Source: Desertivirga arenae (GTDB lineage Bacteria; Bacteroidota; Bacteroidia; Sphingobacteriales; Sphingobacteriaceae). Taken from it: DNA of 64,000 nt. The stretch is from NCBI RefSeq assembly GCF_017355785.1, contig NZ_JAFEWE010000001.1, forward strand, positions 124,001-188,000, given 5' to 3'. This document shows positions 22,229 to 62,900 of this stretch, piece after piece. Under the pieces are notes generated by a model. The model had not been told where the DNA came from, ran no database searches, and saw only the letters and a program-made list of their open reading frames with translations. The number at the start of each line of letters is the position of its first letter. Position 1 is the stretch's first letter. Position numbers and translations under genes: made by a program.

Positions 22229-22264
22229 GGGGGGGCGATGGTAGTAGATTTTTTTTAAAAAAAA
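22229..22264. repeat. Homopolymer cluster G7 and T8A8 after the sigma gene
   Basis: A run of seven G (22229-22235) and a perfect T8A8 palindrome (22249-22264) lie in the 67 bases between the sigma stop and the FecR start. Such tracts are prone to slippage and the T8A8 tract is intrinsically bent. Confidence 0.7.
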
Positions 22265-22267
22265 TTA

Positions 22268-40219: not shown

Positions 40220-40296
40220 AGCCTCTTTAATCTAATACTTCTACCAATTCTGCTTTTTAATTACTTTCAATCTTTCAATTCTAATTGAGCCATCAA

Positions 40297-46430: not shown

Positions 46431-46575
46431 TTCAAACTTACCATATATTAACCAACCTTAATCACATTTTCACCACTTCGAGATACTATCTTGCATATCA
46501 CCACAAATTATCTTAGATTTAACAGTAGGTTAACCATCCGGGTTAATTTATGTATAACCATCAATTCTTGTGAGC

Positions 46576-47445
46576 ATGAAAGTACTACCGTTTACCATCC
46601 CTGTTCCCTTTGACCGGACAGTCATTATTCAGGACGAAAAGCTTCCCTATTTCTACAGTCATCTTCACCGCCACGAGGAAATTCAGGTTACCTGGGTTCA
46701 GGAAGGCGAAGGGACACTAATTGCAGGAAATAACATGCACATGTTTAATTCGGGGGAAATTTTCCTGTTGGGGGCAAACCTGCCGCATCTCTTTAAAAGC
46801 GATCCTTCATACTTTGAACTTAACAGTCAAAAAAATATTCATGCAACAACGATATTCTTCAATCCCCGTGGTAAACTCAATTCTTTATTTGATCTTCCAG
46901 AGATGAAGAACATCACCTCATTTCTGGGGAAATTTCAAAACGGGTTTAAAGTACCAGCGCAAACTGTATCGCGAGTGTCAACCAGTATTAGTTCCATGCT
47001 TAAAACTGATGGAATAGAACAATTCATGATCTTTTTAAATCTTTTAAAAGAAATGAGTGGAACCCAGGATCTGGAGCCTTTAGCAGTTAACTCTTACCCC
47101 AAATCCATAAACGACAGTGAGGGTATGAGAATAGCCAACATCTATAATTATATAATGCAGAATTATAACAAGCCTTTAACCCTGGAGGATGTAGCTGACC
47201 AAGCGTTTATGACCCCTCATGCTTTCTGCAGGTATTTCAAAAAACACACCAGGCATACACTTGTCACGTTCTTAAATAAGGTAAGGGTGAATGAAGCATG
47301 TAAAATGCTAACGAGTGGTAACTTCTCAGGCATTTCAGAAGTAGCTTACACCTGTGGTTTTAACAGCATTACAAATTTCAACAGGGTATTTAAATCTACA
47401 ACAGGATTATCGCCACGATCTTATACTGATCAGTACGTTAATTAA
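46576..47445 (+). CDS. AraC family transcriptional regulator
   Basis: A 289-residue regulator. The frame opens at GTG 46570, but the ATG at 46576 is the likelier start. The N-terminal half is a cupin ligand domain (HLHRHEEIQVTWVQEGEGTLIAG), and the C-terminal 100 residues hold two helix-turn-helix motifs (PLTLEDVADQAFMTPHAFCRYFKKHT and the family signature VAYTCGFNSITNFNRVFKSTTGLSPRSY). It converges on the hydroxyproline gene cluster, whose last gene ends 151 bases away, and is the obvious candidate regulator; regulated promoters would lie at 59-64 kb or further in. Confidence 0.93.
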   Translation: MKVLPFTIPVPFDRTVIIQDEKLPYFYSHLHRHEEIQVTWVQEGEGTLIAGNNMHMFNSGEIFLLGANLPHLFKSDPSYFELNSQKNIHATTIFFNPRGKLNSLFDLPEMKNITSFLGKFQNGFKVPAQTVSRVSTSISSMLKTDGIEQFMIFLNLLKEMSGTQDLEPLAVNSYPKSINDSEGMRIANIYNYIMQNYNKPLTLEDVADQAFMTPHAFCRYFKKHTRHTLVTFLNKVRVNEACKMLTSGNFSGISEVAYTCGFNSITNFNRVFKSTTGLSPRSYTDQYVN

Positions 47446-47596: not shown

Positions 47597-48838
47597 CTAA
47601 AACCTATTGGGAGAGTAAACGGAAACATCGAGAGATGTTTTCTCCTCCTTTATCAACTCAGATACAAGTTTACCTGTGGCCGGACCAAGACTTAGCCCCA
47701 TCATGCCGTGTCCTGTTGCTACAATCAAATTGTTCAACTTTTGCGAACGGCCGATGTAAGGCAATCCGTCGGGAGAGCAGGGACGGAAGCCATACCAGAC
47801 ATTTGAAATCTCAGGAAGTTCTGGTTTTAAACCCGGAAAATAATTCCTCGTAGATTCTACAATACCCTTTACACGGTTCATGTTAACCCTGCTATTTATC
47901 TTATCAATCTCCATCGTGCCTCCTAAACGGATACTTCCGTTCATTGGAGTAACGGCAACTTTAGCCTCGCAAAGTAGCGCGGGGATATGCATACGCTTCT
48001 GAGGTTCCGGCAACATAAAAGAATATCCTTTCCCCGGCATCATCGGGATCTTCAGTCCTGCCAGAGCGGCAACTTCAGGCGACCAGGATCCCGAGGCTAA
48101 TACATAGTAGTCGGCCGTAAAATGTTCATCTCCGGAATAGATACCCAGAATTTTCCCCTCTCCGGTTTTAATTCGTGTAATTGCCTTATTCCTTGCGAAC
48201 TTCACTCCTGAAGCTTCCAGCCGCGAGATAAGCATCGACATTAGTACATAAGGATACAAGTGCGCGTCACACTTGTAATGAACCGCTCCTTTTATATCCA
48301 CTTCTAAACCAGGCTGCAGATCTTTGCATTCCTTAGCTGAAAGCTGCTGGACATCCAGTCCTAACGAACGCGCCTTTTCTGCCAAATGCAGCTCCTCCTC
48401 CTCCGTCTTTGCCGTTTTATACATCATTAGGATACCATTCTCCTGCAAGCCAAAATCACCTAAATCCCGCTCAATATCCTCAAACAAGGCTTTACTTAAT
48501 AAGGATATGTCACGTAGAGGAATCGCAGCTCTTTCAGCTTTTTCAGAGGTAGCGTTCTGCATAAACTTCAAGCCCCAGGAAAATAAGCCGGCATTTAAAG
48601 AAGGTCGCACATAAAAAGGACTCTTACTGTTGAACATCCATCGTATACCCTTCTCTATCATTCCTGGGGCCGCAAGTGGGACAAAATGACTGGGTACAAT
48701 CATTCCTGCATTTCCGTAAGAACAATTGTCCGAGAGGTCGGATTTATCAATTATGGTTACTTCGTAACCCGACTTTTGCAAATACCAGGCAGATGTTAGA
48801 CCTATTATCCCGCCGCCTATTATAATTACTCTGGACAT
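47597..48838 (-). CDS. FAD-dependent D-amino acid (cis-4-hydroxy-D-proline) dehydrogenase
   Basis: A 413-residue DAO-family flavoprotein. The ADP-binding motif IIGGGIIGLTSAWYL lies at residues 5-19, followed by the Asp/Lys of strand 2 (VTIIDKS), and the C-terminal FAD segment reads NLIVATGHGMMGLSLGPATG. Members of this group oxidise D-amino acids such as D-alanine or D-hydroxyproline and pass electrons to the respiratory chain. Its position 30 bases after the hydroxyproline epimerase makes cis-4-hydroxy-D-proline the likely substrate, giving 1-pyrroline-4-hydroxy-2-carboxylate. It is the last gene of the cluster. Confidence 0.88.
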   Translation of the reverse strand: MSRVIIIGGGIIGLTSAWYLQKSGYEVTIIDKSDLSDNCSYGNAGMIVPSHFVPLAAPGMIEKGIRWMFNSKSPFYVRPSLNAGLFSWGLKFMQNATSEKAERAAIPLRDISLLSKALFEDIERDLGDFGLQENGILMMYKTAKTEEEELHLAEKARSLGLDVQQLSAKECKDLQPGLEVDIKGAVHYKCDAHLYPYVLMSMLISRLEASGVKFARNKAITRIKTGEGKILGIYSGDEHFTADYYVLASGSWSPEVAALAGLKIPMMPGKGYSFMLPEPQKRMHIPALLCEAKVAVTPMNGSIRLGGTMEIDKINSRVNMNRVKGIVESTRNYFPGLKPELPEISNVWYGFRPCSPDGLPYIGRSQKLNNLIVATGHGMMGLSLGPATGKLVSELIKEEKTSLDVSVYSPNRF

Positions 48839-48868
48839 ACTAATCCTTAAAAAACATTAATGATATAC

Positions 48869-49870
48869 TTAAATTACCTGAAAGCCTTCTGCATAAGGAT
48901 CCTCTTCATCAATCTTAATCGTATTATAGCCATAAACCCTTGCCCAGCCTTCAATGCTCGGAATTATCGCTTTCTTTCCGTTGAGCTCAACCACATCTTC
49001 AACCTTGCCGATAAACTGGCTTCCAATAATACTTTCGTGAATGAACATGTCACCTTTTTTCAACTTCCCTTTTGCAAACCATTGCGCCATCCGTGCAGAT
49101 GTACCCGTTCCACAGGGCGACCTGTCTATAGCCTTATCTCCATAAAAGACTGCATTTCTTGCGGTGGCCTCTTCTGAAATAGTTTTTCCAGCCCATAGGA
49201 TATGCGAACAACCGTTAATAGTGGGATTTTGAGGATGAACGAAAGTATACTTCTCATTAATTCGCTTACGGAGTGTTCTACTCCAGGATATCAATTGATC
49301 CGCCGAATGATTCTCGATCCCTTTGAAATTTTCCTGGGGGTCAACAATGGCATAAAAATTCCCTCCGTAAGATACATCAACACGAAGCAAACCAAGATCA
49401 GGGCATTCCACTTCGAGATTTTCAGCAGCAAGAAACGAAGCTACATTTGTCAGTTTAACTGATTTAACCTTTCGTCCTTCCTGCCTGTACTCAATCAGAA
49501 CAAGACCCGCCGGAGCTTCCATGCGGATTATTCCGGGTACTTTCGGTGTGATAAGTCCTTCCTCTACTGCTATGGTAATTGTTCCAATAGTACCATGTCC
49601 GCACATCGGCAAACAACCACTCGTTTCGATAAACAAAACAGCAACATCATTTTCAGGATCATGGGGCGGATAAAGTATACTACCCGACATCATATCGTGC
49701 CCCCGGGGCTCATACATCAGGCCTTTCCTTATCCAATCGTATTCTTTCAAAAAATGCTGCCTTTTCTCGCTCATATTCTCCCCTGACAGATTCGGCCCAC
49801 CCCCTGCCACCAGGCGTACAGGATTGCCACAGGTATGAGCATCAATACAAAAAAAAGTTTTATTCCGCAT
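48869..49870 (-). CDS. 4-hydroxyproline 2-epimerase (proline racemase family)
   Basis: A 333-residue cofactor-independent epimerase. Both catalytic Cys are present: C90 in LPMCGHGTIG and C253 in RSPCGTGTSARMA; enzymes with Thr in place of the first Cys are dehydratases, so this one is an epimerase/racemase. In the genomic setting of a DHDPS-like deaminase, semialdehyde dehydrogenase and D-amino-acid dehydrogenase it converts trans-4-hydroxy-L-proline to cis-4-hydroxy-D-proline, the first step of the oxidative route. It starts 1 base after the dehydrogenase stop. Proline racemase is the less likely alternative. Confidence 0.93.
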   Translation of the reverse strand: MRNKTFFCIDAHTCGNPVRLVAGGGPNLSGENMSEKRQHFLKEYDWIRKGLMYEPRGHDMMSGSILYPPHDPENDVAVLFIETSGCLPMCGHGTIGTITIAVEEGLITPKVPGIIRMEAPAGLVLIEYRQEGRKVKSVKLTNVASFLAAENLEVECPDLGLLRVDVSYGGNFYAIVDPQENFKGIENHSADQLISWSRTLRKRINEKYTFVHPQNPTINGCSHILWAGKTISEEATARNAVFYGDKAIDRSPCGTGTSARMAQWFAKGKLKKGDMFIHESIIGSQFIGKVEDVVELNGKKAIIPSIEGWARVYGYNTIKIDEEDPYAEGFQVI

Positions 49871-49871
49871 A

Positions 49872-51452
49872 TTAGTCTTTAGTCCAAAGCTTATTTTTCA
49901 ATCGCCAAATATTCAAGGGATTGCCATCTTGCAACTCTTCCGGCAGGAGATCATGTTCCCAGCTCTGCCAACAGACCGGACGAACAAAGCGCCTAATAGC
50001 AGTTGCTCCAACCGAAGTGAATCTGCTGTCTGTAGTGGATGGAAAAGGTCCGCCATGCTGCATTGCGTGGCATACCTCTACCCCTGTCGGAACTCCGTTC
50101 ATCAGCACCCTGCCGGCAATTTCACTTGCTTTGTCTAAGATAGAACTATAATTGTGAGTTCCGCCGGAACCTGTCATTATGGAAACCGTAAGCTGCCCGC
50201 CAACAGAATCTAACACTGTCTCTATTTCTGACGTTTCCTTTACCGTAACCAGTAAAGACCAGGGACCAAACACTTCTTCCCTAAGTTCCCTGTTTTGTAA
50301 AAACTCGCCCGAGGATATCTCAGCTACAGTTGCTAAAGCCTGGTTCCTGGCACTCTGATTTAATTTATCAGATTTGCTCAGTAATTTAACTCCTTCCTGC
50401 TCCAGCATCTTGCCTAAAAGCGAGTGATAATTTCTACAGATACCCTCCGTGAGCATAGTGGAGGATTCAGAATCAGTTACTGCCTTTTGCAATGCAGCTT
50501 TAAAACGTTCTAATGCAGGAGATTCAATTCCAATAAGCAATCCTGGATTAGTGCAGAATTGCCCGACACCAAGTGTTATGGATGCAGCATATTCTTCAGC
50601 AATTTGTTCAGCTCTTTCCTCTAAAGCTTCAGGTAACAGAATTACCGGATTAATGCTACTCATTTCCGCGAAAACCGGAATGGGTTGTGTGCGTTGTGCA
50701 GCTAATTTACTTAAAGCGATACCGCCGTTAAACGAACCGGTAAAAGCGACAGCTTTAGCTACCGGGTGCTTAACAAGCATCCCACCAATTTCATGTCCCC
50801 CTCCGTAAACAAGGGAAAAGATACCTGCAGGCATTTCAGTCTTTTCCGCTGCCTTTACTATCGCAGCACCTACAAGGGCACTTGTACCCGGATGAGCAGG
50901 ATGAGCTTTAACAATTACAGGACATCCGGCTGCAAAGGCGGAAGCAGTATCCCCGCCCGCAACAGAAAAAGCCAGAGGAAAATTACTGGACCCGAAAACC
51001 ACCACCGGCCCGATCGGCACTAACATCCGCCGTAGATCCACACGGGCAACAGGCTGACGATCAGGCAAAGCAGAATCAATAATTGCTTCAACCCAGGAAC
51101 CTTCCTCTACCTGATCGGCAAACATATTCAATTGGGCGATAGTTCGGCCTCTTTCCCCTTGCAGCCTTGCAACCGGAAGTCCGCTCTCTTCACCAGCCCT
51201 TTTAATCAGATCATCACCAAGAGCTAAAATCTCTTCACCTACTGCACGGAGGAATGCAGCTTTTTTAGATTTGCCGATACTTCTAAAAACAGAAAAAGCC
51301 GCATTTGCTGAATCAAAAGCGGCGTTAATCTGATTGGAGTCGGCCTGGTAAAATTCTCCATCAAGCTCCAGGCCTGTAAAAGGATTAACAGCCCTGAAGG
51401 GACTATCAACAGACTCAACATATCTGAGTGCAATAATATTTTTAGTGTTCAT
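49872..51452 (-). CDS. 2-oxoglutarate semialdehyde dehydrogenase (NADP+-type ALDH)
   Basis: A 526-residue aldehyde dehydrogenase. The open frame extends to 51503, but the ATG at 51452 gives the natural N terminus (MNTKNIIALRY). The ALDH catalytic Cys lies in GVGQFCTNPG, the Glu in PVFAEMSSINP, and the Rossmann loop in AFTGSFNGG; GSSNFPLAFSVAGGDTASAFAAGCPV is typical of the ketoglutarate semialdehyde group. It performs the last step of hydroxyproline degradation, making 2-oxoglutarate. It abuts the epimerase gene. Confidence 0.92.
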   Translation of the reverse strand: MNTKNIIALRYVESVDSPFRAVNPFTGLELDGEFYQADSNQINAAFDSANAAFSVFRSIGKSKKAAFLRAVGEEILALGDDLIKRAGEESGLPVARLQGERGRTIAQLNMFADQVEEGSWVEAIIDSALPDRQPVARVDLRRMLVPIGPVVVFGSSNFPLAFSVAGGDTASAFAAGCPVIVKAHPAHPGTSALVGAAIVKAAEKTEMPAGIFSLVYGGGHEIGGMLVKHPVAKAVAFTGSFNGGIALSKLAAQRTQPIPVFAEMSSINPVILLPEALEERAEQIAEEYAASITLGVGQFCTNPGLLIGIESPALERFKAALQKAVTDSESSTMLTEGICRNYHSLLGKMLEQEGVKLLSKSDKLNQSARNQALATVAEISSGEFLQNRELREEVFGPWSLLVTVKETSEIETVLDSVGGQLTVSIMTGSGGTHNYSSILDKASEIAGRVLMNGVPTGVEVCHAMQHGGPFPSTTDSRFTSVGATAIRRFVRPVCWQSWEHDLLPEELQDGNPLNIWRLKNKLWTKD

Positions 51453-51525
51453 GTGTGTTTTTAAGGTTGTTGAAATGTCTGGCATCTTTACTACGCCAGA
51501 CACTTCCTTTTGTTGAGGCGATCAA

Positions 51526-52461
51526 TTATGCCAAAACTGTTTCTCTTCGTCCCCAGCTTCCTTCAGGTAATTCTGGTCTTGTAGCTAAAGAATCCTCAAT
51601 CACTTTAATCACACGTTCACGGTTCTTACCGCTAAGTGGAAGGCGGGGCGCTCGCACATTTTCTGTTCCTAATTCTGTGTAAACCTCCGCTAACTTGATG
51701 TTCTGAACAAGTTTTGGATCAATATCAAGCTCAAGCAAAGGAAGGAACCAGCGATAAATGCTCAAGGCCTCTTCATAGCGACCTGCTTTGGCAAGGCGAT
51801 AAATAGCAACCGTTTCCTTAGGGAAAGCATCAACCAAACCTGCAACCCAACCATCAGCTCCCATAAACAAACTCTCCAGGGCTAAGGGATCAACCCCGCA
51901 AAGAATTTTAAAACGATCCCCAAAGCGGTTAATCATTCTGGTTACATTGCTGATATCCCGGGTAGATTCTTTTACTGCCTGAATGTTATCGAACTTAGAC
52001 AATTCGGCAAACATGTCTAAAGTAACTGTAGTCTTATAATCAACAGGGTTATTATATATAATAATAGGTAAGGGAGTACGTTCGGCTATAGTTGCAAAAT
52101 ATTGAATGGTTTCCTCCACACTTGAAGAATAGCGTAGTGGGGGTAAGATCATGAGGCCACTTGCTCCCTTTTCAAGAGCCTTTTCAGCCAGATATACTGC
52201 AACCTTGGTAGATTGCTCTGCAATGCTGAATATTACCGGAACTTTACCATTTACATATTTTACTGTGTGCTCTGTTAAATCAAGTTTCTCCTGATCAGAA
52301 AGCGTGCTTGCTTCACCCAAAGAACCACTTACAATTATTCCATCAACACCAGCATCCAACTGACCTTGTAATCCCTTTTCGTAAGCTTCGTAATCTATTT
52401 CATCGTTCTCATTAAACTTTGTTGTAATTGCCGGGTAAACCCCTTTCCAGGTAACATTCAT
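51526..52461 (-). CDS. DHDPS-family 1-pyrroline-4-hydroxy-2-carboxylate deaminase
   Basis: A 311-residue (beta/alpha)8 aldolase-fold enzyme of the dihydrodipicolinate synthase family. The open frame runs to 52533, but the conserved start MNVTWKGVYPAI lies at 52461. The Schiff-base Lys is in IQAVKESTRDIS and the catalytic Tyr in IIYNNPVDYKT; the GSLGEASTLS segment is the carboxylate loop. In this gene company it is the deaminase that turns the pyrroline into 2-oxoglutarate semialdehyde with release of ammonia. DapA or N-acetylneuraminate lyase are less likely given the neighbours. Confidence 0.9.
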   Translation of the reverse strand: MNVTWKGVYPAITTKFNENDEIDYEAYEKGLQGQLDAGVDGIIVSGSLGEASTLSDQEKLDLTEHTVKYVNGKVPVIFSIAEQSTKVAVYLAEKALEKGASGLMILPPLRYSSSVEETIQYFATIAERTPLPIIIYNNPVDYKTTVTLDMFAELSKFDNIQAVKESTRDISNVTRMINRFGDRFKILCGVDPLALESLFMGADGWVAGLVDAFPKETVAIYRLAKAGRYEEALSIYRWFLPLLELDIDPKLVQNIKLAEVYTELGTENVRAPRLPLSGKNRERVIKVIEDSLATRPELPEGSWGRRETVLA

Positions 52462-52564
52462 AATCTCAACTTTAATTTTATTTAATTCAAAAATACAGAC
52501 TGTGCAAACCGTGCATTTATTAGAAATTAGCACATAGTGGCTTGATTTTAACTAAATCGCAAGG

Positions 52565-53506
52565 CTAAGGTTTTCTACCTACAAAGGGCAGATTAACAGT
52601 TAAAACATAGGTTCCGGGACCATTGATATAAAACTCGAAAGCAACATTTGCATTCCTGTTAATATCCACAAAACGCCCTGGCACTCTATAGTAGGATAAA
52701 AATCCATTTGTAGAGGTTAAGAAGGGGAACGGGAACTTTTTAGGAAATTTGTAGACTAAAGCTGTATCTGTTCTTTCTTCCGGATAGTAGGGGTTCATCT
52801 TAGCCAGATTTCCTCTATCGCCCCGGTGAACTACTTCTCCATTTTTAGGATTGAACACATTTCCGTTGCGATCAACAAATTTCAGTATTATTTTATCTTC
52901 TCCACTAGGCACCCGGCGCACGTTCACGCTTGTTTCTGCATTAATAAAACCGTCTTCGCTGCCCAAATTAGAATGGCTCGCAAAAGGAGCCCCCTGAAAC
53001 CGGTAGCTCTCCATCGGGACCAGATGAATGTCTATAGCATTCCGGAGTATCCGTGTCCCCTTAAGGTTTGAAACCTGCACATCCAATGTATACATTCCAG
53101 TATCTACGTTAGCTGTGGCTGGAGACAAGCCGATTCGTCCGCCAACTTCATTGACACTTAAAGCAGGAGTGGGTTTAAGCGCAATTTTTTTAAACAAGAG
53201 CTCGAGGGTAGAATCAGCATGGGTAACTTCAGACAAGTACTGGGGGACCTCATATTCCTGCGTAAATTCGGGAGCAGGTTTCCCTGTCCTTTTATTTCTC
53301 ACTTCTAAAAGTTTAACACTTGCAGGCCCGGTTCCGCCATCTAGTTCAATGGATGTTGAGGCTGTTGTTACCCCTTGCAATGCTACAAGTACTTTCGGAC
53401 GATAGTACATATAGTCACTGATATAGCCTTCTTCTGGCTTGCAAGAATATATGAACATGCTTGTGAACGAAGCAATGAACAACATTTTTTTTATCTTCCT
53501 TTGCAT
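52565..53506 (-). CDS. Outer-surface lipoprotein, DUF5007-like
   Basis: A 313-residue lipoprotein: signal peptide with lipobox ending YSC, Cys at residue 22. The mature protein is beta-rich, with two apparent Ig-like halves (about 35-150 and 155-313) and a Phe-rich C terminus. Such lipoproteins sit next to SusD genes in Bacteroidota and probably help present substrate at the surface. I believe it is the DUF5007 family, from memory. It follows the FAS1 lipoprotein by 21 bases and precedes the deaminase by about 100. Confidence 0.65.
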   Translation of the reverse strand: MQRKIKKMLFIASFTSMFIYSCKPEEGYISDYMYYRPKVLVALQGVTTASTSIELDGGTGPASVKLLEVRNKRTGKPAPEFTQEYEVPQYLSEVTHADSTLELLFKKIALKPTPALSVNEVGGRIGLSPATANVDTGMYTLDVQVSNLKGTRILRNAIDIHLVPMESYRFQGAPFASHSNLGSEDGFINAETSVNVRRVPSGEDKIILKFVDRNGNVFNPKNGEVVHRGDRGNLAKMNPYYPEERTDTALVYKFPKKFPFPFLTSTNGFLSYYRVPGRFVDINRNANVAFEFYINGPGTYVLTVNLPFVGRKP

Positions 53507-53527
53507 AAAAATATCGATGAGGGTAAA

Positions 53528-54178
53528 CTAGAATCTTATAAAAAAGTGATTGTTGCTTAAGACGTTGATAGTGGTGCCAGAGGATGTCACAATCCCTGTA
53601 GTTTGGCACTGTACTGCAATATCGGTTTGATTTGGAGGAGGAGGTACCCCCACAACATCCCGGCTTCCTTTAATTTTAGTAAGATATAGATAATATACCT
53701 CTGCGCCAGACCACGACTCTCCCGCCCGCGGTTGAAGAACTTTTCGATAATCGAATACTTCATTAGTGACACTTGTTATTGGGGTAGAAGTTGTTGGTGC
53801 GGTACCAAGCGAAACGTTTTCCTTAAATAAGTACTGCGCAAGGGAATCACGGGAGATCTCCTTAACAAGAGTATCCAGGGTGTAAGGGATATTTTCGTCA
53901 CGTCGCAGCTTCTTGGTGTCGATAAATCGTTTAATTGCATAGTCCGTAGGAACGAAAAATGTACCTGCAGTATTCACTTCATTCTTCATGTCTAATTTAT
54001 CGATGATCACGCAAAGGGTATCAAACAGTTTACCGGGATGTTGATTTAAATAATCAAAGGCGCTAAGAGGAGTATTTGGGGTATGAACTCCCCCATCTTG
54101 AAGATAGTCGCTCTTTTTACAACAAGTAAAAACGACCGCCGCCAGTAATATTAAAATTATATTATATAATGATTTCAT
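53528..54178 (-). CDS. FAS1 (fasciclin)-like lipoprotein
   Basis: A 216-residue lipoprotein. The frame runs to 54238 and overlaps the SusD gene; the ATG at 54178 yields a proper lipoprotein signal (MKSLYNIILILLAAVVFTCC, Cys 19-20). A FAS1-like domain spans about 35-150, with the hallmark FFVPTDYAIKRFI preceded by FDTLCVIIDKLDM and later LVKEISRDSLAQYLF. FAS1 domains mediate adhesion or ligand binding; in PULs they occur as accessory surface lipoproteins. It starts 10 bases after the SusD stop and belongs to the SusC-SusD operon. Confidence 0.75.
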   Translation of the reverse strand: MKSLYNIILILLAAVVFTCCKKSDYLQDGGVHTPNTPLSAFDYLNQHPGKLFDTLCVIIDKLDMKNEVNTAGTFFVPTDYAIKRFIDTKKLRRDENIPYTLDTLVKEISRDSLAQYLFKENVSLGTAPTTSTPITSVTNEVFDYRKVLQPRAGESWSGAEVYYLYLTKIKGSRDVVGVPPPPNQTDIAVQCQTTGIVTSSGTTINVLSNNHFFIRF

Positions 54179-54188
54179 ATACAAATGA

Positions 54189-55682
54189 TTAAATCTTCGA
54201 ATTCCAAAATGGCGTCTGGGTAAGAAGTTTGTTTTCATTAAGAAGAGATGGGTCTAAAGGCCAGTAATACTTTCCCTGAAGAAAATCAGTAGTAGTCATT
54301 TTAGGACCAATAGCGGTAGTTCCAAAAAAGCTAACCTTTGAAACATCCTTGCGCGTTAACCTTATTACATCGTAGAAGCGATGTCCCTCCAGGAACAATT
54401 CCCTTCCTCTTTCTTCTATTATTTCCTCGAACAGCAGATGATCTGGGATATTAACTGCCGTAGCATCTGCAAGAGACCTAATTTTGTTGAGCATTGTTCT
54501 GGCGGCGGAATATTGACCAGTAGCTGCCAGAGCTTCAGCTCGCAAAAGATAAATATCCGAGTATCTGAAAACCACAATATTATTTCTGAAAAGAGGTGTC
54601 GCTGCCGATGATTGTCCTCCTCCAACATAGCTGATATTAGCATACTTGGTACACATTGGCGCAGCAGTATTAGAAAGGTTAAAACAAGATCTGAAACGTT
54701 TATCGGTTGTTCCTTTAGGAAACATTCTATAAACAGTATTTGAATCAATAACAATTTCAACACCTGTTTTACCTGTAATATAGGGGGCAGCTAAAGTGAA
54801 TCTGCCAATACCTAATATGGTTCCTTCATTTTCACCTGACTGAGCAATTTCAAAGACACCTTCGTTTGATCCCCCTTTATAAATACCCCTATAGCTCAAA
54901 CTATCCCGGGAAACGAAGCCGTATAGCGTTTCCTGTTTGACGACTTCGTCAGCAGCGAGCGCACATTTTTCATACTCACCCATCCATGCATAAAGATGAG
55001 CTAATAAGGCATAAGCAGAACCTTTGTTCGCTCTTACTGCCTTATCGGAAGCGCTTGCATATTGCCATGGTAATAAGGAAATAGCTGTCTCAATATCCTT
55101 TATGCAAGAACTTAATACTTCAGCCTGCGGAGTTCTTGGCAAGTTCACAGCAGAACTCACATTAACAGCACCTGAGACTAAAGGTACATCTCCCCATATC
55201 CTGGTCATATAGAAATAGTTGAAAGCTCTGAGAAAATAGGCCTCACCGATTAATCTGTTCCTTTCTTCCTCTGAGCTGAACTCTGATGCAGGGATATTCG
55301 GAATAAATGCAATACACCTGCTTGCCTGGTCAATAGCACGGTAAAACAGGTCAAACCGTCTTAACCTTCTAAGGTTGCGCCAAGGCTCACCAGAAGGAAC
55401 ATAACCGGTTGGATTTAACTGTACAACTGGTCCTAAATCTGAAAGATTTGAACTCAAGATCTCGTCGCTCACTAAATCTCCATACGCGAAAAAACTAACG
55501 CCTTCCACTAAATTAAATGCCTGTCTAACTAAGGCATAACTACCAGCAATAGCTGATTCTGCTTCTGCCTCATCCTTCCAAAAGGAATCATCGGTTGATG
55601 TGCTAAGAGGCTCCTGGTCTAAGAACTTGCTACAAGAACTAAAACCAGCAATAATTAAAATACATAGAAATATTTTTTTCAT
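54189..55682 (-). CDS. RagB/SusD family lipoprotein (hydroxyproline cluster)
   Basis: A 497-residue lipoprotein. The frame extends to 55766 into susC, but the ATG at 55682 gives a proper signal peptide and lipobox (FSSC, Cys 17). SusD features: the QEPLSTSTDDSFWKDEAEAESAIAG opening, RLIGEAYFLRAFNYFYMTRIWGDVPLV, and a C terminus reading YYWPLDPSLLNENKLLTQTP. It starts 10 bases after the SusC stop. Its ligand is unknown; the neighbouring catabolic genes suggest hydroxyproline-containing peptides or glycopeptides rather than simple sugars. Confidence 0.95.
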   Translation of the reverse strand: MKKIFLCILIIAGFSSCSKFLDQEPLSTSTDDSFWKDEAEAESAIAGSYALVRQAFNLVEGVSFFAYGDLVSDEILSSNLSDLGPVVQLNPTGYVPSGEPWRNLRRLRRFDLFYRAIDQASRCIAFIPNIPASEFSSEEERNRLIGEAYFLRAFNYFYMTRIWGDVPLVSGAVNVSSAVNLPRTPQAEVLSSCIKDIETAISLLPWQYASASDKAVRANKGSAYALLAHLYAWMGEYEKCALAADEVVKQETLYGFVSRDSLSYRGIYKGGSNEGVFEIAQSGENEGTILGIGRFTLAAPYITGKTGVEIVIDSNTVYRMFPKGTTDKRFRSCFNLSNTAAPMCTKYANISYVGGGQSSAATPLFRNNIVVFRYSDIYLLRAEALAATGQYSAARTMLNKIRSLADATAVNIPDHLLFEEIIEERGRELFLEGHRFYDVIRLTRKDVSKVSFFGTTAIGPKMTTTDFLQGKYYWPLDPSLLNENKLLTQTPFWNSKI

Positions 55683-55692
55683 CTTGATTTTT

Positions 55693-58600
55693 TTAAAGGG
55701 TAATGTCCAGACCGAAGGTGTACTTCTTTGGAATTGGGTAGTCATTTCCGCTCGAATACCCATCAACTCCTACGGCCTCGGGGTCAGGTACCGTTGCATT
55801 TGACCAAACGCGAACGTTATCCAGAATACCATAAATGTTCATTGATTTTACTCCAAACCGTTTGGTTAATTTGGATGGTATTGCATAGCCCATACGAATG
55901 TTTTTAAGTCGAATGAAGCTGGCATCCTCCACATAGAAAGATTGAGCGATATGCCATTTATCAACGGTATTAGTAATTAGACCTGGGTAACGGGCAACAT
56001 CACCAGGTTTCTGCCAAAAATCAGACATGTTAAAATCAGAGGAAGGCCCCGACCGCGGTCCCCATAATGCATAAGGATCAGAAGTTCCCGCATCCTGCAT
56101 CTTGTCGGATAAATATCCATTCCATAAGCTTCTTCCCGAAATAAATGTTACGAGGAAGTTCAAGCTAAAACCTTTATAAGTTAAGGTATTATTTAACCCA
56201 CCTGTAAGATCAGGATTTGGATTTCCGTATGGAACTTTATCTAAGTGATCTATTGTATAGTCGCCATTAACGTCTCTCCTGGCAGGATCACCTGCAGAAA
56301 ACTGCGTTGAAGAACCTAGCCATGTTATTCTTCGTCCGGTCAATGGATCTATAGGTACATCCGAATTAGTTGAATAGATTCCTCCGACCTCCCAGACTGA
56401 GAATGGATATAAAGGCTGACCAATGGTTAACGTACGCTCCATCCAGCTGGGTCCAAATCTAAACTCTCGCCCGCCACTTGGAAGCTTGGTAACGTAGTTC
56501 TTATTATAGGCAATATTAAAGTTAGTAGTCCACTGAAGCTTAGAATTCTGCGATAAATTTCTAGTATTGATTGCAACTTCAAAACCTGTATTACGAACAC
56601 TTACAAAGTTATTTCTAACGCTTGTGTAACCCGTTGTAACAGGAACCGGCACGTCAAATATCTTTTCCTTGGAGTCCCTGACATACCAGTCGCCAGTTAA
56701 AGAAATTCTGTTATTAAATAGACCGATATCTGTTCCAATATTTAACTGGGGACTTCTTTCCCAACCTAAATTAGAATCGGCTGCAGGCTGTTCATAGTCT
56801 GGATACATCACTGTGGTCCCATTATAGGTCCCTGCATCGCCGCCATTTCCATTTCCTAACACAGATCCTGTGTAAGCGGCATTCGATATCAAATTATTGT
56901 AATAAGCATAGTAACTTCCGGGATCTAGTCCCGTTATACCGTAACTCGCTCTAAACTTTAAGTAAGGAACAACGTTCTTAATATTCTCAAAAAATGCTTC
57001 CTCACTTGGTACCCACGCTGCGGATGCCGCCGGGAATGCCCCCCATCGATTAGTCTTGCTATACCTTGATGAACCATCAACACGGTAACTCAACTGAGCC
57101 AAGTATTTTGATTTGTAATCATAACCTACCCGGCCAAAATAAGAGAGGCGTGTCCGGATAGATTCAGCACCGCGGGCGAAAAGGTCTGCACCGGAAGGTA
57201 CTCCTGCTGGTGTTTTAATTGCATTTTTATTACCAACGCTGTAGGTGTAATTATCATATTGATTATTCTGCTCCATTCCCTGCCCCAGTAATGCTGTAAC
57301 AGAATGATCTTTGATTGTCTTTGAATAGTTAAAGTAGTTTTCCAACTCATATCTTCTGTTTTGATAGATCCAGCTATAAGCCTCATTTCTACCAGAACCA
57401 CTTAAAATACTCGGCTTAAAATAGTTACGAGTATTGTTATACATATTATAAGACAGTTGGCTTTTTAAACTCAACTCAGGCAGGATAGTTAATTGAACTG
57501 ATGTATTGCCATTAATACTACTTGTCCGGTCGTCGTCTCTCAAATCTTCATAACGCCCTGTATATAATTCTTTCTCAACCTCCGTAATTTGCCAGAATGA
57601 AGATGGGAAGCCCCAGGTATCGAAAGGATATTTACTCTCATCTCCCTGACCATGTTTCGATTTGGTAAATCCTAGAAATAGGTTTGACTCAAAGCGCAAG
57701 TTTTTAAATGGGGTGGCATTAATATTCAGACGGGGAGAAATGCGGCGGGTATCGTAACCGATCATTACGCCTTCTTCGTAATAATGTCCGAAGGAGACAC
57801 GGTAGCCGAATTTTTCGGTAGATGATGCAATACTTGCGTCAATGTTATTAATAGGCGCAGCCTGAAGGAACAACCCTTGCCAGTCTGTATTATTGTTAAA
57901 TGCCGGATTTAAGCTGTCTGTAAGCATCATGCTCAAATTCTCCATTCTTGCATACTGTCCAGAAGCATAAAGCAATCCCATTTTCTGTCTCCGCTCTGCT
58001 GTACCTACCAACATGGGCTTCATGGCTGGTTTATCCGATATACCACCATAAGCCGATACCCGCACTTGCGGCACCCCGGGCTTTGCCTGTTTCGTGCGGA
58101 TAATGATAACTCCATTTGCAGCTCTTGCTCCATAGATTGCAGAGGCCGAAGCATCTTTTAGCACGTCAACCGATTCTACATCATTCGGATTGATCGCTTG
58201 AAGTGGACTACTGTTTCCATAAGCAGACTGGATGTCATTTACGTCATATATAACACCATCAATTACATAAAGAGGAGTACTTCTGCCCCCAACATCCACA
58301 CTACTGTTTCCCCGGATACTTACTATGTTATTAGATCCCGGTTCACCGGAAGTACTTAAAACGGTTAAACCAGGAACCCTTCCCTGAAGCATACCGTCTA
58401 TGGTAGCATAGGGAGTATTTTCAAAGTCCTTCCCCTTTACTGATGCAATGGCACCGGTATTTTTCCTTCTTTCGATATTCTGATAGCCGATTACCACAAC
58501 ATCTTTTAACTGTGAACTTTCTTCTTCCAATTTGACGGTTACCGAGCTCTTGTCGCCGACCGCCAGTTCTTTCGTTTTAAAGCCAACGAACGTAAACACT

Positions 58601-58833
58601 AATACCGGGTTCGAGCTGCTTGCTGAAATCGAGAATTTGCCTTGAACATCAGTGCTTACTCCGACCTTTAAGCCCTTTTCCTTAACAGAAACTCCAGGCA
58701 AGGGGAGATTCTTTTCATCAACCACGATTCCTGAAATTCTTTTCTGAGCGAATGCAAGCCAGGGAATACCGATACAAAAAAGTAACATCAGAAACCGTAA
58801 GCTTCGATTGTAAGTAATGTTAATACTCATCAT
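55693..58833 (-). CDS. SusC/RagA TonB-linked transporter (hydroxyproline cluster)
   Basis: A 1046-residue outer membrane transporter. After a signal peptide ending FAQ (about residue 30) it has a carboxypeptidase-like beta domain (about 32-110), the SusC motif KDVVVIGYQNIERRKN, a plug with VDVLKDASASAIYGARAANG and a long barrel ending KYTFGLDITL. It lacks an STN domain, so unlike the other SusC it does not signal to a FecR/ECF pair; the AraC gene at 46.6 kb is the more likely control. It starts 10 bases before susD. Confidence 0.96.
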   Translation of the reverse strand: MMSINITYNRSLRFLMLLFCIGIPWLAFAQKRISGIVVDEKNLPLPGVSVKEKGLKVGVSTDVQGKFSISASSSNPVLVFTFVGFKTKELAVGDKSSVTVKLEEESSQLKDVVVIGYQNIERRKNTGAIASVKGKDFENTPYATIDGMLQGRVPGLTVLSTSGEPGSNNIVSIRGNSSVDVGGRSTPLYVIDGVIYDVNDIQSAYGNSSPLQAINPNDVESVDVLKDASASAIYGARAANGVIIIRTKQAKPGVPQVRVSAYGGISDKPAMKPMLVGTAERRQKMGLLYASGQYARMENLSMMLTDSLNPAFNNNTDWQGLFLQAAPINNIDASIASSTEKFGYRVSFGHYYEEGVMIGYDTRRISPRLNINATPFKNLRFESNLFLGFTKSKHGQGDESKYPFDTWGFPSSFWQITEVEKELYTGRYEDLRDDDRTSSINGNTSVQLTILPELSLKSQLSYNMYNNTRNYFKPSILSGSGRNEAYSWIYQNRRYELENYFNYSKTIKDHSVTALLGQGMEQNNQYDNYTYSVGNKNAIKTPAGVPSGADLFARGAESIRTRLSYFGRVGYDYKSKYLAQLSYRVDGSSRYSKTNRWGAFPAASAAWVPSEEAFFENIKNVVPYLKFRASYGITGLDPGSYYAYYNNLISNAAYTGSVLGNGNGGDAGTYNGTTVMYPDYEQPAADSNLGWERSPQLNIGTDIGLFNNRISLTGDWYVRDSKEKIFDVPVPVTTGYTSVRNNFVSVRNTGFEVAINTRNLSQNSKLQWTTNFNIAYNKNYVTKLPSGGREFRFGPSWMERTLTIGQPLYPFSVWEVGGIYSTNSDVPIDPLTGRRITWLGSSTQFSAGDPARRDVNGDYTIDHLDKVPYGNPNPDLTGGLNNTLTYKGFSLNFLVTFISGRSLWNGYLSDKMQDAGTSDPYALWGPRSGPSSDFNMSDFWQKPGDVARYPGLITNTVDKWHIAQSFYVEDASFIRLKNIRMGYAIPSKLTKRFGVKSMNIYGILDNVRVWSNATVPDPEAVGVDGYSSGNDYPIPKKYTFGLDITL

Positions 58834-58881: not shown

Positions 58882-59781
58882 TTAGAAAAGGCTCTTCTCA
58901 CCTTTACCAAATCTATAGCTCAGGAGAAATTCCTGGGTATTATTGTTTATCTGACCGAGGCCATATTTAGAACTGTTGAACTGATAGCTGTAACCTAACC
59001 TGAAACTCTTAAGGTCCAGTTGAGCAATACCTGCCAGACCACCGTATGATCTTACATTTAGGCCTAATCCCATTAAGTCTTTTATAAAAGCCATACCTGA
59101 TGCTTCAGCCTGAACTTCCGAATCCTGACTTAGAGCAATAAGCCCCGATGGCCTTAATTTGAAATCATCAGCAATCTTTAAAATTAGTCCGCCGTTCACC
59201 AGGAACTGATTCCGCAAACTATAGGAATAGCTGTTTTGATCCTGGTTACTCAAAACATATTTGGGCATGGAAACACCTACATAAAATTTTGAAGGGTTGT
59301 ACAAGAGAATGCCAGCTCCAACTATTCCTTTTGATACCTTGTTGCCGTTTGCAAAAACCGGATCTCCGGGTTCCAAATTGGAGTAATTACTACTAAAGGA
59401 ATTCAGACCAGCATTAACAGACAAAGCGAAATAGCTATTTTCTGATAGCTGAACGGATTTTGCTACAAAAACTGAAACATCAGTATTCTGCTCCTCTCCA
59501 ACTTTATCATATCGAAAATTTACACCAAGGGTAGCCTTCAAGGATCTGTAAGGTAAATAGGCGTTTCCCCAGAACGAAACCGGTGCTCCCTCTATTCCCG
59601 ACCATTGTTGCCTGGAAACTAAACTGACCTGACCATCAGGATTAATTAAACTGGCAGCACTGTTCAATGGTGATAGATTGCTGCTATACTGGTTGTATGT
59701 AGTTAGTTGCTGAGCCAATGATGATTGGAAGGCCAAAAAGCATAATGCTGACGCAAGCAATGAGACAAGTGTGTTTTTCAT
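58882..59781 (-). CDS. PorP/SprF family type IX secretion-associated outer membrane protein
   Basis: A 299-residue outer membrane protein. The ATG at 59781 gives a signal peptide (MKNTLVSLLASALCFLAFQSSLAQQ), whereas the longer frame to 59871 has no signal. Features of PorP/SprF: YNQYSSNLSPLNSAASL, the strand SRQQWSGIEGAPVSFWGNAY and a beta-barrel ending FLLSYRFGKG. PorP/SprF proteins are needed for export or anchoring of type B sorting-domain proteins, and the gene encoded immediately upstream on the same strand is such a protein. The pair lies just upstream of the SusCD genes. Confidence 0.92.
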   Translation of the reverse strand: MKNTLVSLLASALCFLAFQSSLAQQLTTYNQYSSNLSPLNSAASLINPDGQVSLVSRQQWSGIEGAPVSFWGNAYLPYRSLKATLGVNFRYDKVGEEQNTDVSVFVAKSVQLSENSYFALSVNAGLNSFSSNYSNLEPGDPVFANGNKVSKGIVGAGILLYNPSKFYVGVSMPKYVLSNQDQNSYSYSLRNQFLVNGGLILKIADDFKLRPSGLIALSQDSEVQAEASGMAFIKDLMGLGLNVRSYGGLAGIAQLDLKSFRLGYSYQFNSSKYGLGQINNNTQEFLLSYRFGKGEKSLF

Positions 59782-59900
59782 TGGAATAATTTTTTTTTTA
59801 ATGGAAATGAAGCTATCATTTGGGCAATTTTTATTGATTCCAGTGTGTGAGTAATGCTCATGATGATTCATCTGCTCCTATTAAAGATTTTTGAATTCGA

Positions 59901-62900
59901 TTAATTATACCCCAGAGCGAAGTATCCCTTCATCACTTTCCAGGCCTGGTCCTTGTCCCTGATCTTTATTACATAGAAGTAAGTACCGGCAGGAAGCCTG
60001 GCCCCCTCATTTGTTCTGCCATCGAATAAAACGCGGGCATTGTCATAGCCTTTGGCCTTGTAGACTTCAACTCCATTGGAACTTAAAATTGATACAGCGT
60101 TGTCTCCATACAATTCAATGCCCCGGATATTGAAATAATCGTTAATACCATCATTATTTGGAGAGATGGCTTTATTAACCAGAACCGGTCCGTTGGCATC
60201 GTCTTCAATTGTGACCGTTAATTTCACGGGAGGAGCTGCATCATAAAGGTTATTTCCTGCCTGACGAATGATTATATCAGTTGTTCCAGGCTGTTTAAAC
60301 TTTAAGTTCGAACCGTCCAACCAGCCTATCCACCCATTTGTAATTTCGAACGACAGGGGCAAGCCAACCGTGCTGGATGCTGTGAGTATTGCTGAACCAT
60401 TCTGGAGCTTTAATACACCAGGATCGACAGCGCTAATGGATTGAACTCCTTTATTTATGGTTAGGATCCGTTCAGCTAATGCCCGGTTGCGGTAATTAGA
60501 ATTGATCGGCGTTACGGCAGTGATCTTTACAGTCCCAACTCCTTTAATAGTCACCGTGCCGTTTGGATCAACTTCGGCAACACTCGTGTTTGAGCTGGTA
60601 TAAGTGATGCTTTCATTTGAACTTGATGTAACTCCCAAGCTGAAAGCAGCCTCGCCATATCTTTTTGTTGCAAGCTCCGGAAAGCTAAGAGTTCTTTCAG
60701 GAAGATTTCCAGCCTCTGCACCGCACATTAAAAATTTAGAGAAATTCATTTCTGCTGCAGTGTAAAGAGTTACAGGTTTATTAATATCATTATTCAGTTC
60801 ATGATTTACCAGGCCGTCGCAGGCACTCCTGGGTGTAGATGTAGGGCTAAACATAATCCCGGGGCTTTGCAAATATTTACCAGCACTACAAGTTCCTCCA
60901 ATCTCAGCATCCCCACCAATTTCAATTGTACCTCCAAGGTTTTGAGAGTTCGGCGAGAAAGCATTTCCATAAATCTTCGCACTGCCTGTTATATTATTCC
61001 AGAACAAGGCGGCATTCTGGCTGATACTTGCGTTTTCCTTTACTGTGGTATTATGTACATAGGCGTAATTGGAAAGCTGGGCATTCCCCGAAATATTGGA
61101 GTTACCGGATACTACCGCAAAGTCTTTTATAACTGCATTACCTGAAATACTGGCATCATCTCTAACCAAAGCCTTTCCTTCAATCCTTACATTTCCTGAG
61201 AGTTGTGCCCTCCCCAGAACAGTGGCATTTGGGCCGACATATACCGAAGAGGCAACGCTGGCAGTTGAGGCTACAAAGCCTCCTCCATTGCGGTGTCTGG
61301 AACCTGCCGGTAATCCTGTTTGACGAAACCCTGCCTGATATCCTTCAGGCACTGCACCTTGAAGAGAAATTTCGTAAGGAAAGCGGTATAGTCTTGGGAA
61401 ACCAGCTTCGAAGAGATCGGTATGTTTTTGATAGCTTGAAGGAGCTCCCAGAACCACCAGGTATAATTCAGTTGAACCTGCAGGAACCTTATAAGATATT
61501 TCTGCATCTCCGGCCTGAGCATTACTATAAATGGCAGTTCCAGCATTATCAACACTTACAAATCCATATCTCCAGCCTGCGAAAGCATTCACATCCGCAT
61601 GACCTTTAAATTTAAGGTTCACATAATTATCGGTACAGTTAGAGTATCCCTGCTGCACGTGCAATCGAACAATATTGAAGCCGTACTGCTGTGGTGCGAG
61701 GTTATTCGGAATGGCGTAATGATCCTTACCTATGGAATCAAGAATCACGGTTTTTCTGAAATCCCAGAAAGGATCAATCGTTGTTTCCAGTTTCTGAATA
61801 TCAGCCTTATTACTAAAATCTCCTTTCACCCTTCTCATAGCATACTCCAGCATCATATCGTTCATTTTGCTTTGATCCAGGCCGAGCAAGCGACTGATGG
61901 TTTCAGTAGGATGCTCTTTTGCCGCAGGGTTTGCTTCTCTCCAGATCCTATTTATGAATTCTATCCCATGCTTGTCTTTCAGGTATTGCAGCAGATAGAA
62001 GTCGGAGTAATGTTTTCTGGCTGAACCGAAATGGTAATTAGTAAAATTCCAGGCCCTGGGATAATCTGTATTGCCGAGCAGATTTGGATAGCGCTGAATT
62101 GCCATAAAATTAGCATGCGTTTCCCAAAAAAATCCTGAGTGTGCGACACCAGTAAAGCCCGCACCAGGATAAAGGAGAGGAATCATGTATTGAAAGGCAT
62201 GGGTGATCTCATGAGCCAGCACCCAGGCATTCTCTCTTACCGTTCTAGGGTCGATATACATAGCATTGATCACGTTGTCAAAGCCTCCCCCAAATGCCCA
62301 GCCTGTATAACGATCCTGGTTCCAGGTGTTATTCATTACTACAATGGTTTTATACTTCTTTAGATTTCCGGTTTCCTCAACGTATTTCTGATCGTCGATC
62401 ATAAAATCATAAAGGGCTTCCATGGAGTCAAGAACTGCCTGCGGCTTAAATACAAGGTCGGGATTGCTGGCCTTTGTTGGATCATTACCAGCCAATGGCC
62501 CCCAAACTACTATAAAGTTCTCAGAAGCCAGAGAGCGATTAGTAAGATCGATCTGTTCTTTTAATGGGGATGATTTCCATTCATTTGGGATATAAACTGT
62601 CTTGGTCCCAATTGAACTTATCCTACCAAACACTTTCCACTCAATAATTCCGGTAGATTGAACGTTGTTCTTCATACTCACCCGTAATTTGGTAGTAGAA
62701 ATAGAGCCTAGGTCCAATGCATTGTACTTATCCCGGTCTGTACCTATATTACCTATACGCACCCAGGAATCTGTTAGTACATCATAATACTCTACATAAG
62801 CCTCCGTCGGTATCATGATACCTCCGTCATCTGTAAACCAGTAGATTTCGGTACTGCTTAGTTTGGCCGGACTGCCCCACTCATACTGCACCCAACGGAA

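Follow-up and report, generated by a model that had tools for sequence, protein, structure and literature searches.

The 64,000-nucleotide stretch analysed here (the window) comes from Desertivirga arenae (contig NZ_JAFEWE010000001.1, positions 124,001 to 188,000) and contains a locus in which a SusC/SusD module is followed by genes of a probable hydroxyproline (Hyp) catabolic route. On the minus strand, at 47597-58833, the transcription order is SusC, SusD, a FAS1-like lipoprotein, a weakly DUF5007-like lipoprotein, a deaminase, an aldehyde dehydrogenase, an epimerase and a DAO-family dehydrogenase. The one-strand run extends upstream of SusC to a PorP/SprF gene (48 bases from SusC) and, a further 29 bases away, a DUF6055 gene. 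From SusC to the DAO-family dehydrogenase, the gaps are 10 (SusC-SusD), 10, 21, 103, 22, 1 and 30 bases, the 103-base gap directly preceding the deaminase ATG (52461). With start codons re-read from the translations (SusD at ATG 55682 and the FAS1-like gene at 54178), the overlaps between open reading frames (ORFs) vanish. An earlier note on this DNA is right in its gene order, its assignment to one strand and its coordinates. The features of the run, from its upstream end, are as follows.

63831-63865, minus strand: pair of GGTTAAT half-sites with a 21-bp spacing, ahead of the DUF6055-SusC run
59901-63662, minus strand: DUF6055 metallopeptidase-like secreted protein (HExxH and a later Glu) with Big_2 and a CHU_C type IX secretion domain (Pfam)
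58882-59871, minus strand: PorP/SprF-family outer-membrane protein (profile matches)
55693-58833, minus strand: SusC TonB-dependent transporter (TIGR04056, 765 bits against a cut-off of 368)
54189-55682, minus strand: SusD lipoprotein, start ATG 55682 (PF07980/PF14322)
53528-54178, minus strand: FAS1-like lipoprotein of the SusC module (in 32/72 regions read; 6/23 match Fasciclin)
52565-53506, minus strand: weakly DUF5007-like lipoprotein of the SusC module (in 32/72 regions; 1/23 matches DUF5007)
52462-52564, minus strand: 103-base gap with a -7-like box TATTTTTG (52495-52488) and an operator-like half-site GTTAAAAT (52540-52553), a putative second promoter
51526-52461, minus strand: DHDPS-family protein, probable pyrroline-4-hydroxy-2-carboxylate deaminase (Pfam DHDPS)
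49872-51503, minus strand: aldehyde dehydrogenase, probable alpha-ketoglutarate semialdehyde dehydrogenase (Pfam Aldedh)
48869-49870, minus strand: 4-hydroxyproline 2-epimerase (4HypE; NF010578, 605.9 bits against a cut-off of 376)
47597-48838, minus strand: DAO-family protein, probable D-hydroxyproline dehydrogenase (Pfam DAO)

The hallmarks of a polysaccharide utilization locus (PUL) that we tested are present, with adjacent SusC and SusD genes and clustered carbohydrate-active enzymes (GH127 and GH97 in the window, a GH43-type gene just upstream). The names given in the earlier note hold for SusC, SusD and the epimerase and, at superfamily level, for the deaminase, semialdehyde dehydrogenase and D-amino-acid dehydrogenase. 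Its FAS1 and DUF5007 labels are weak, since neither Fasciclin nor DUF5007 is called by Pfam for the window's two lipoproteins even at E 5, and only 6/23 and 1/23 relatives match (23 sequences per set, the window protein included). The FAS1-like lipoprotein was also considered as a phylum-wide marker and set aside, as it is found in 5/395 genomes at 1e-8 (own genome included), all within the window's family. One SusC copy of the module elsewhere (L108, G238:C35:3959-7099) carries a single in-frame stop and is read as two ORFs.

Among the catabolic genes, the epimerase alone reaches a Hyp-specific NCBIfam cut-off; the deaminase, aldehyde dehydrogenase and DAO enzyme reach none and are contiguous with it. 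Cys90 and Cys253 of the epimerase align with both Cys motifs found in a proline racemase, and its best match among solved structures is a proline racemase (264 bits) and not a 4HypE. Roles in the Hyp route are probable for the other three enzymes, assigned by superfamily and gene company; that company matches the set described for 4HypE clusters in the portions of PMC4113996 (eLife 2014) that treat them, where the epimerase is accompanied by a D-amino acid oxidase, a DHDPS-type deaminase and an aldehyde dehydrogenase. The window's cluster differs in sitting within a PUL-like locus with peptidases; the terms TonB, SusD, Bacteroidetes, Pedobacter and Chitinophaga do not occur in the main text of PMC4113996.

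The association of the SusC module with the epimerase recurs across genomes. The epimerase family occurs in 217 of the 399 genomes of the window's family, while DUF6055 is above its curated cut-off in 72 (53 of 125 genomes below that cut-off having been dropped), and all 72 also have the epimerase family (Fisher 1.3e-22). A SusC relative of at least 46% identity is present in 40 genomes (own genome included), 39 of which have the epimerase family. For those with a listed epimerase place, this SusC is on the same contig in 15/23 and within 25 kb of the epimerase in 7/23; among the matches listed, the corresponding proportions at lower identity are 3/12 (40-45%) and 10/53 (36-39%), against a rough expectation of 1% for random places in 5 Mb. 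These distances draw on 149 epimerase and 148 SusC places among the matches listed, the SusC list covering genomes other than the window's own. DUF6055 lies within 10 kb of the SusC relative in 29 of the 36 places taken, which leave out the own genome and G121, G143 and G212 (SusC genomes without a listed DUF6055).

The order SusC-SusD-FAS1 is seen in 31 of the 72 regions read (window included), often followed by DUF5007-like and DUF6055 genes; these regions are not a random sample, 40 (L031-L070) having been chosen by epimerase score or genus and the others for SusC relatives. The nearest SusC modules among named loci are from Pedobacter, Sphingobacterium and Parapedobacter. Of the 40 regions that were not selected for SusC, 6 (L038, L042, L053, L058, L059 and L065) have a SusCD pair of another kind on the same strand upstream of the deaminase, separated from it by no more than two genes. 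In Sphingobacteriales bacterium 44-61 (L204), SusC, SusD, DUF6055, deaminase, aldehyde dehydrogenase, epimerase, an M61 peptidase and dehydrogenase share one strand, and Galbibacter sp. EGI 63066 (L178) has a rhamnosidase-family gene, SusC, SusD and DUF6055 ahead of a divergent AraC gene and the Hyp genes, with DPP-IV and GH127 coming after these.

A phylum-wide scan of DUF6055 contigs (79 loci from the best 80 of 120 relatives) extends the neighbourhood: at E 1e-20, the two GH127 queries match at 20 loci each, GH43 at 19, DUF5695 at 15, DPP-IV at 10, and SusD, FAS1 and DUF5007 at 17 each. As a control, 14 unrelated proteins from this genome give 5 matches in all. As a side observation, DUF6055 stands beside GH127, GH43, DUF5695 or DPP-IV relatives, with no Hyp genes in the fetched flanks, in Bacteroidales-type genomes of various origins, among them metagenome-assembled genomes from rumen (L135, L152, L156, L161, L164, L166, L167, L173, L192, L195, L196, L200 and L210; in L196 it is beside a SusC module). 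Outside the window's family, DUF6055-glycosidase/DPP-IV loci of this kind may be frequent.

The Bacteroidota -7 consensus is TAnnTTTG, and in the 103-base gap TATTTTTG is a perfect instance that starts 34 bases before the deaminase ATG, with a poor -33 box. In 37 of 50 regions (window included), such a -7 box lies no more than 150 bp ahead of the deaminase, compared to a mean of 4.7 and a maximum of 10 in shuffles, and within 220 bp in 37/49 deaminase upstreams versus 25/113 unrelated ones. These two comparisons make a separate promoter for the catabolic half probable. A reading with TTGACA/TATAAT promoters was rejected (41 matches against a shuffle mean of 39.2). The earlier proposal of a single SusC-to-dehydrogenase operon is doubtful, as the gap holds both the TATTTTTG box and the GTTAAAAT half-site. 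The promoter between 52461 and 52565 that had been named there as the feature speaking against a joint system is probably present in part, though as a second promoter of one regulon. At the other end of the run, an 11-pair terminator-like hairpin (63958-63932) lies behind the upstream GH43-type gene and ahead of the DUF6055 run; of the 17 terminator-like sites between 46000 and 64000 its stem is the longest, though such sites in general mean little, as shuffles average 16.1.

On the other side of the catabolic genes lie a regulator, peptidases, a permease and glycosidases.

46570-47445, plus strand: AraC-family regulator whose own promoter holds a 21-bp operator-like pair (Pfam)
44518-46299, plus strand: M24 X-Pro aminopeptidase-like protein (Pfam)
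41941-44241, minus strand: DPP-IV family S9 peptidase (Pfam)
40285-41694, plus strand: M24 prolidase/aminopeptidase P-like protein (AMP_N; Pfam)
38327-39787, minus strand: POT/PTR2 oligopeptide transporter family (Pfam)
36151-38322, minus strand: second DPP-IV family peptidase (Pfam)
34469-36139, minus strand: M1 peptidase family (Pfam)
31723-34452, minus strand: DUF5695 protein (Pfam), whose model resembles the PL27 lyase BACCELL_00875
29603-31576, minus strand: GH97, closest to the retaining alpha-galactosidase 3a24 (Pfam, PDB sequence matches)
28663-29580, minus strand: secreted-looking HEWSH-motif protein with no Pfam family, a possible further metallopeptidase
24974-28051, plus strand: GH127 family with a laminin-G-like domain, with an operator-like site upstream at 24818

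The operator-like motif ACtnnATTTTAACC (= GGTTAAAATnnaGT) was fitted only to 49 deaminase upstreams, to which the window half-site at 52540-52553 belongs; widths of 14, 18 and 22 were tried and 14 was used. The threshold is the 95% level of 128 unrelated upstreams (about 9.96 bits), which 7/128 controls pass. With the window and regions overlapping deaminase upstreams removed, the motif passes upstream of SusC in 33/51 cases, AraC in 30/39, GH127 in 13/23, DUF5695 in 5/13 and GH43 in 4/11, followed by PEPQ (3/10), POT (2/4), DPP-IV (2/6), aldehyde dehydrogenase (1/7) and DAO (0/6). The SusC-SusD-FAS1 modules pass in 20/31 regions, and in 15/25 after similar upstreams are removed; the motif also precedes SusC modules in 14 of 20 fetched regions without the epimerase. 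The sets of 50 deaminase and 31 SusC-module regions include the window, and some motif sets keep overlapping regions.

In the window's own contig, the interval 24600-75722 (which runs beyond the window) contains 17 sites above threshold apart from the training site, 8 of them intergenic, in sequence that is 7.1% intergenic; at 13 bits or more, 7/9 sites are intergenic. Of these seven strong sites, two lie 21 bp apart before AraC and two before POT/PEPQ, while DPP-IV/X-Pro aminopeptidase, GH127 and the second SusC are each preceded by one. Many AraC-family operators have a 21-bp spacing, and 21 bp is the commonest second-site spacing in the deaminase, SusC-module, AraC and GH127 sets. The best 21-bp operator-like pair of the five promoter regions tested is that in the AraC gene's own promoter (46440, 46461). 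Across the 6.19-Mb genome, the dimer pattern occurs within one mismatch at seven places, including 63831-63865 and the AraC promoter; one (C1:186275) falls within a 1123-aa ORF and four others are outside the locus. The dimer pattern is not blind, as it was written after two window sites had been seen.

The enzymes of the locus point to both protein and glycan. In the DUF6055 protein, H140, E141, H144 and E170, which correspond to the gluzincin HExxH and downstream Glu, are invariant in 53/53 sequences. The predicted structure (53 sequences in the alignment, mean pLDDT 87.7) has gluzincins as its top matches, led by M1 aminopeptidases and followed by M60 ZmpC/ZmpB and collagenases, and every one of these is remote (Foldseek E 9e-5 and TM only ~0.35 to M1; Z 11.3 to M1 ERAP1 and 9.9 to the Grimontia collagenase). 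By motif and remote model matches, the protein is metallopeptidase-like. Pfam finds no M60 domain in it, the matches being DUF6055, CHU_C, Big_2 and a weak F5/8-type domain (E 0.01), and a PDB search by sequence returns no convincing relatives of DUF6055 or DUF5695. Excerpts of PMC11241649 place a DUF6055 protein in the little-described peptidase family M106. The PorP/SprF protein is perhaps a partner of the window's DUF6055 protein, which would be exported by type IX secretion. Between its DUF6055 and Big_2 domains, the DUF6055 protein also has a stretch resembling hexapeptide repeats (SGNVRIEGKALVRDDASISGNA...) that may form a left-handed beta-helix stalk.

The GH97 sequence scores 548 bits against the alpha-galactosidase 3a24 and at most 226 bits against alpha-glucosidases, and it keeps the Asp that is Gly in 5e1q, a position we take to be the catalytic nucleophile of GH97. 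The gene just upstream of the run has GH43 proteins as its PDB matches, and its cluster relative is assigned to GH43 by Pfam. For DUF5695, the predicted structure (15 sequences in the alignment, mean pLDDT 72.9) matches BACCELL_00875 with a Foldseek E of 3e-24 and Z 21.1 over 606 residues at 14-16% identity, the next different protein reaching only Z 16, whereas a single-sequence phmmer search finds no PL27 chain at E 1. The protein thus resembles a PL27 lyase by fold, and folds show no activity. According to excerpts of PMC8377490, BACCELL_00875 is an L-rhamnose-alpha-1,4-glucuronate lyase that removes rhamnose from gum arabic, an arabinogalactan protein (AGP)-type substrate.

Taken together, these observations lead us to propose, with a probability of roughly 0.68, that the locus is a utilization regulon for hydroxyproline-rich plant glycoproteins (HRGPs) such as extensin and AGPs. 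The gene content, its conservation and co-occurrence, the motif common to the upstream regions, the catalytic motifs and the model folds are observations, whereas the substrate, the cellular locations, import as glycopeptides and the target and signal of the regulator are what we infer. In this scheme, the type-IX-secreted DUF6055 metallopeptidase would act on the cell surface to cut glycoproteins of the extensin or AGP type, and SusC/SusD with the two lipoproteins would import the resulting Hyp-glycopeptides. GH127, GH97, the nearby GH43 and perhaps DUF5695 would strip arabinose, galactose and caps, after which the DPP-IV, M1 and M24 enzymes would cut X-Pro/X-Hyp peptides and the POT permease would move short peptides across the inner membrane. 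The freed trans-4-hydroxyproline would then be converted to alpha-ketoglutarate by the epimerase, D-Hyp dehydrogenase, deaminase and semialdehyde dehydrogenase, and the AraC regulator, sensing Hyp or an intermediate, would switch the units via a 21-bp direct-repeat operator. Extensin carries Ser-O-alpha-galactose. It also carries Hyp-O-arabinosides, as excerpts of PMC7263609 describe, and with these two decorations the GH127 and GH97 activities fit this substrate.

The shared operator-like motif, the co-occurrence and the recurrent neighbourhood uphold the earlier idea that the SusCD pair belongs with Hyp use, and make a glycopeptide substrate the best fit. The contrast drawn in the same place, in which the pair would serve amino-acid breakdown in place of glycan use, does not survive the presence of GH127, GH97 and GH43 in or adjoining the locus, which for that reason joins glycan use and amino-acid breakdown. 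A more specific combination is tentative, and we would bet somewhat against all of it holding: that DUF6055 is the plant counterpart of M60-like mucinases and needs or tolerates Hyp-O-glycans, that SusCD imports Hyp-glycopeptides and not glycans, that DUF5695 represents a novel lyase-like family acting on the ends of AGP side chains, and that one AraC protein sensing Hyp or an intermediate controls both sugar release and amino-acid catabolism.

Several observations weigh against the plant-glycoprotein regulon. The exact order SusC-SusD-FAS1-DUF5007-deaminase is present only in the window among 50 epimerase regions from 49 genomes (G052 supplies two), Fisher values such as that above ignore relatedness, and two listed genomes of the window's own genus are without the epimerase family. 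In the 79 DUF6055 loci, flanks of up to 10 kb contain the epimerase in only 3 and the deaminase in 4, so DUF6055 often occurs without adjacent Hyp catabolism. Motifs of width 18 and 22 transfer to only 11/31 and 13/31 SusC modules. The width-14 motif passes before other SusC genes too (7/11), and a separate GH127 PUL in the window has a passing site before its SusC (10.4 bits, 21086); for SusC paired with SusD-like_2 the figure is 2/7. Either the motif is no clean marker of Hyp-related SusC genes, or other SusC genes are also in the regulon. The 21-bp spacing is also the commonest in controls (2 of the 7 above threshold), which could mean that the controls include members of the regulon or that the repeat occurs more widely. 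The 63831-63865 sites stand out only as a 21-bp pair, with a single-site score of 8.0 against the threshold, and 3/128 controls score as high as this pair, in a region of 308 bases compared to 220 for controls. At up to three mismatches, the dimer pattern is noisy (664 places versus 436 for a reversed control).

An ordinary arabinogalactan/arabinan PUL, with SusCD importing glycans only and the Hyp genes forming a neighbour unit that uses free Hyp after outside proteolysis, would account for the likely separate promoter before the deaminase and for the many DUF6055/GH127 loci with no epimerase nearby (it is present in 3/79), co-regulation then reflecting a shared plant-wall niche. Characterized SusCD systems are, moreover, mostly glycan importers. 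This explanation has a small chance of being right: DUF6055, DPP-IV, M1, M24 and POT genes are in the same locus and DUF6055 is close to this SusC in 29/36 places, and a peptidase-like surface protein together with a peptide permease argues for a peptide-bearing cargo. Peptides could instead come from animal collagen or gelatin, with SusCD importing Hyp-rich peptides and the neighbouring glycosidases serving other substrates. The remote match of the DUF6055 model to M9 collagenases among others (Z 9.9 for Grimontia and 11.3 for M1 ERAP1) and the suitability of DPP-IV and X-Pro aminopeptidases for Gly-Pro-Hyp peptides agree with a collagen source, which we nonetheless find quite unlikely, given that GH127 upstreams have the operator-like motif (13/23) and that GH127, GH43 and DUF5695 recur beside DUF6055 (20, 19 and 15 of 79 loci, versus 5 matches for the 14 unrelated proteins together). 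The glycans of collagen are beta-Gal and alpha-Glc, and the GH97 looks like an alpha-galactosidase, which they do not require. A search for Peptidase_M9 finds no match in the own genome and none in control genomes either, and so is uninformative; a collagenase as the surface enzyme was rejected on locus context.

Chance adjacency in this strain, with read-through or rearrangement having placed an unrelated SusCD pair before Hyp genes, is very improbable. Of the 50 epimerase regions, only the window indeed has this exact gene order, but the SusC-epimerase proximity and co-occurrence are repeated, the motif precedes SusC modules in 14/20 regions without the epimerase, and other SusCD pairs stand upstream of the deaminase on the same strand (6/40 regions not chosen for SusC; L204 and L178). 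Collagen peptides or plain glycans thus fit less well than plant glycoproteins.

When compared to known systems, the plant-glycoprotein regulon most resembles the Bacteroides thetaiotaomicron BT4240-50 PUL for mucin O-glycoprotein, for which excerpts of PMC11992087 describe a surface metallopeptidase, proposed SusC/D import of glycopeptides and trimming by the PUL's glycosidases. That PUL has an M60-like peptidase and acts on mucin GalNAc/Gal (PMC11992087), whereas the window has a DUF6055 peptidase-like protein, glycosidases pointing to plant HRGPs and catabolism of the glycosylated amino acid itself. The most economical reading is a regulon that works like the B. thetaiotaomicron mucin glycopeptide PUL but is directed at plant-wall glycoproteins and continues down to breakdown of the amino acid. 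RagAB of Porphyromonas gingivalis is likewise a SusCD-type importer implicated in peptide uptake. It serves oligopeptide uptake in a proteolytic pathogen, and we know of no glycosidases or Hyp genes beside it.

The glycosidases recall Bifidobacterium longum HypBA1/HypBA2/HypAA and their Xanthomonas euvesicatoria homologues, GH127 and GH43 enzymes for extensin Hyp-linked arabinofuranosides (PMC7263609, PMC6085000, in part). In excerpts of the same papers, the Xanthomonas cluster has a (broken) putative prolyl oligopeptidase gene next door, and Bifidobacterium differs in importing beta-arabinobiose by an ABC transporter; these excerpts mention neither Hyp catabolism nor SusCD, and 'TonB' is absent from PMC6085000. 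HRGP degradation has been proposed in silico for Latescibacteria, with no such locus in the excerpts of PMC4454575. Among the matches listed, a search of open-licence literature finds no report of GH127-type HRGP enzymes, a 4HypE cluster and SusCD under one operator, nor a paper on point that joins hydroxyproline with SusD; none in that literature joins 4-hydroxyproline 2-epimerase with Bacteroidetes. The parts are already known, namely GH127-type HRGP enzymes, 4HypE clusters and SusCD import of peptides or glycopeptides, and what is new is their union. Extensins and AGPs are glycan-armoured proteins of the plant wall, for whose sugars bacterial enzymes are described in the consulted parts of the cited literature; no complete route in which the protein moiety, too, is taken up and catabolized is described there. 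If the plant-glycoprotein regulon is real, it would provide a testable genetic system for complete glycoprotein use in Sphingobacterium, Pedobacter and relatives, give roles to the little-known DUF6055 and DUF5695 families, and widen the SusCD/PUL idea from glycan use to complete glycoprotein use, with an amino acid and not a sugar as the likely inducer.

A few further features of the contig deserve mention. The HEWSH-motif protein (28663-29580; 305 aa) contains EYWAEGTQ further along, matches nothing in Pfam even at E 5 and has a 66% identical stretch in Pedobacter rhizosphaerae (L194); it is possibly a new metallopeptidase family. Just beyond the window, the same contig contains GH43- and GH127-type genes, an ornithine-cyclodeaminase-family gene and, by resemblance, a SusD-like_2/SusC pair, and further along a second DUF6055 gene and more glycosidase-type genes. 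The ornithine-cyclodeaminase-family gene (L126:6615-7616, or 70114-71115 in window numbering) lies between the GH127-type gene and the SusD-like_2/SusC pair. In 3-hydroxyproline routes, members of this family reduce pyrroline-2-carboxylate (PMC4113996, in part), and a second proline-type route may therefore sit among the glycan genes. The second DUF6055 gene (L126:12224-13645) is followed by an apparent arabinogalactan-type PUL (L127; together with the gene 75723-96344 in window numbering) with GH43-family and DUF2264 genes and, to judge by eye, a further SusCD pair and beta-galactosidase-like and hybrid two-component-like genes. Finally, the separate PUL at 13885-22870 in the window comprises a sigma factor-like gene (named by sequence), FecR, an STN-domain SusC, SusD and GH127, adjoined by an SMP-30-family gene; with its SusC site at 21086 just over the motif threshold, it may share the regulator.

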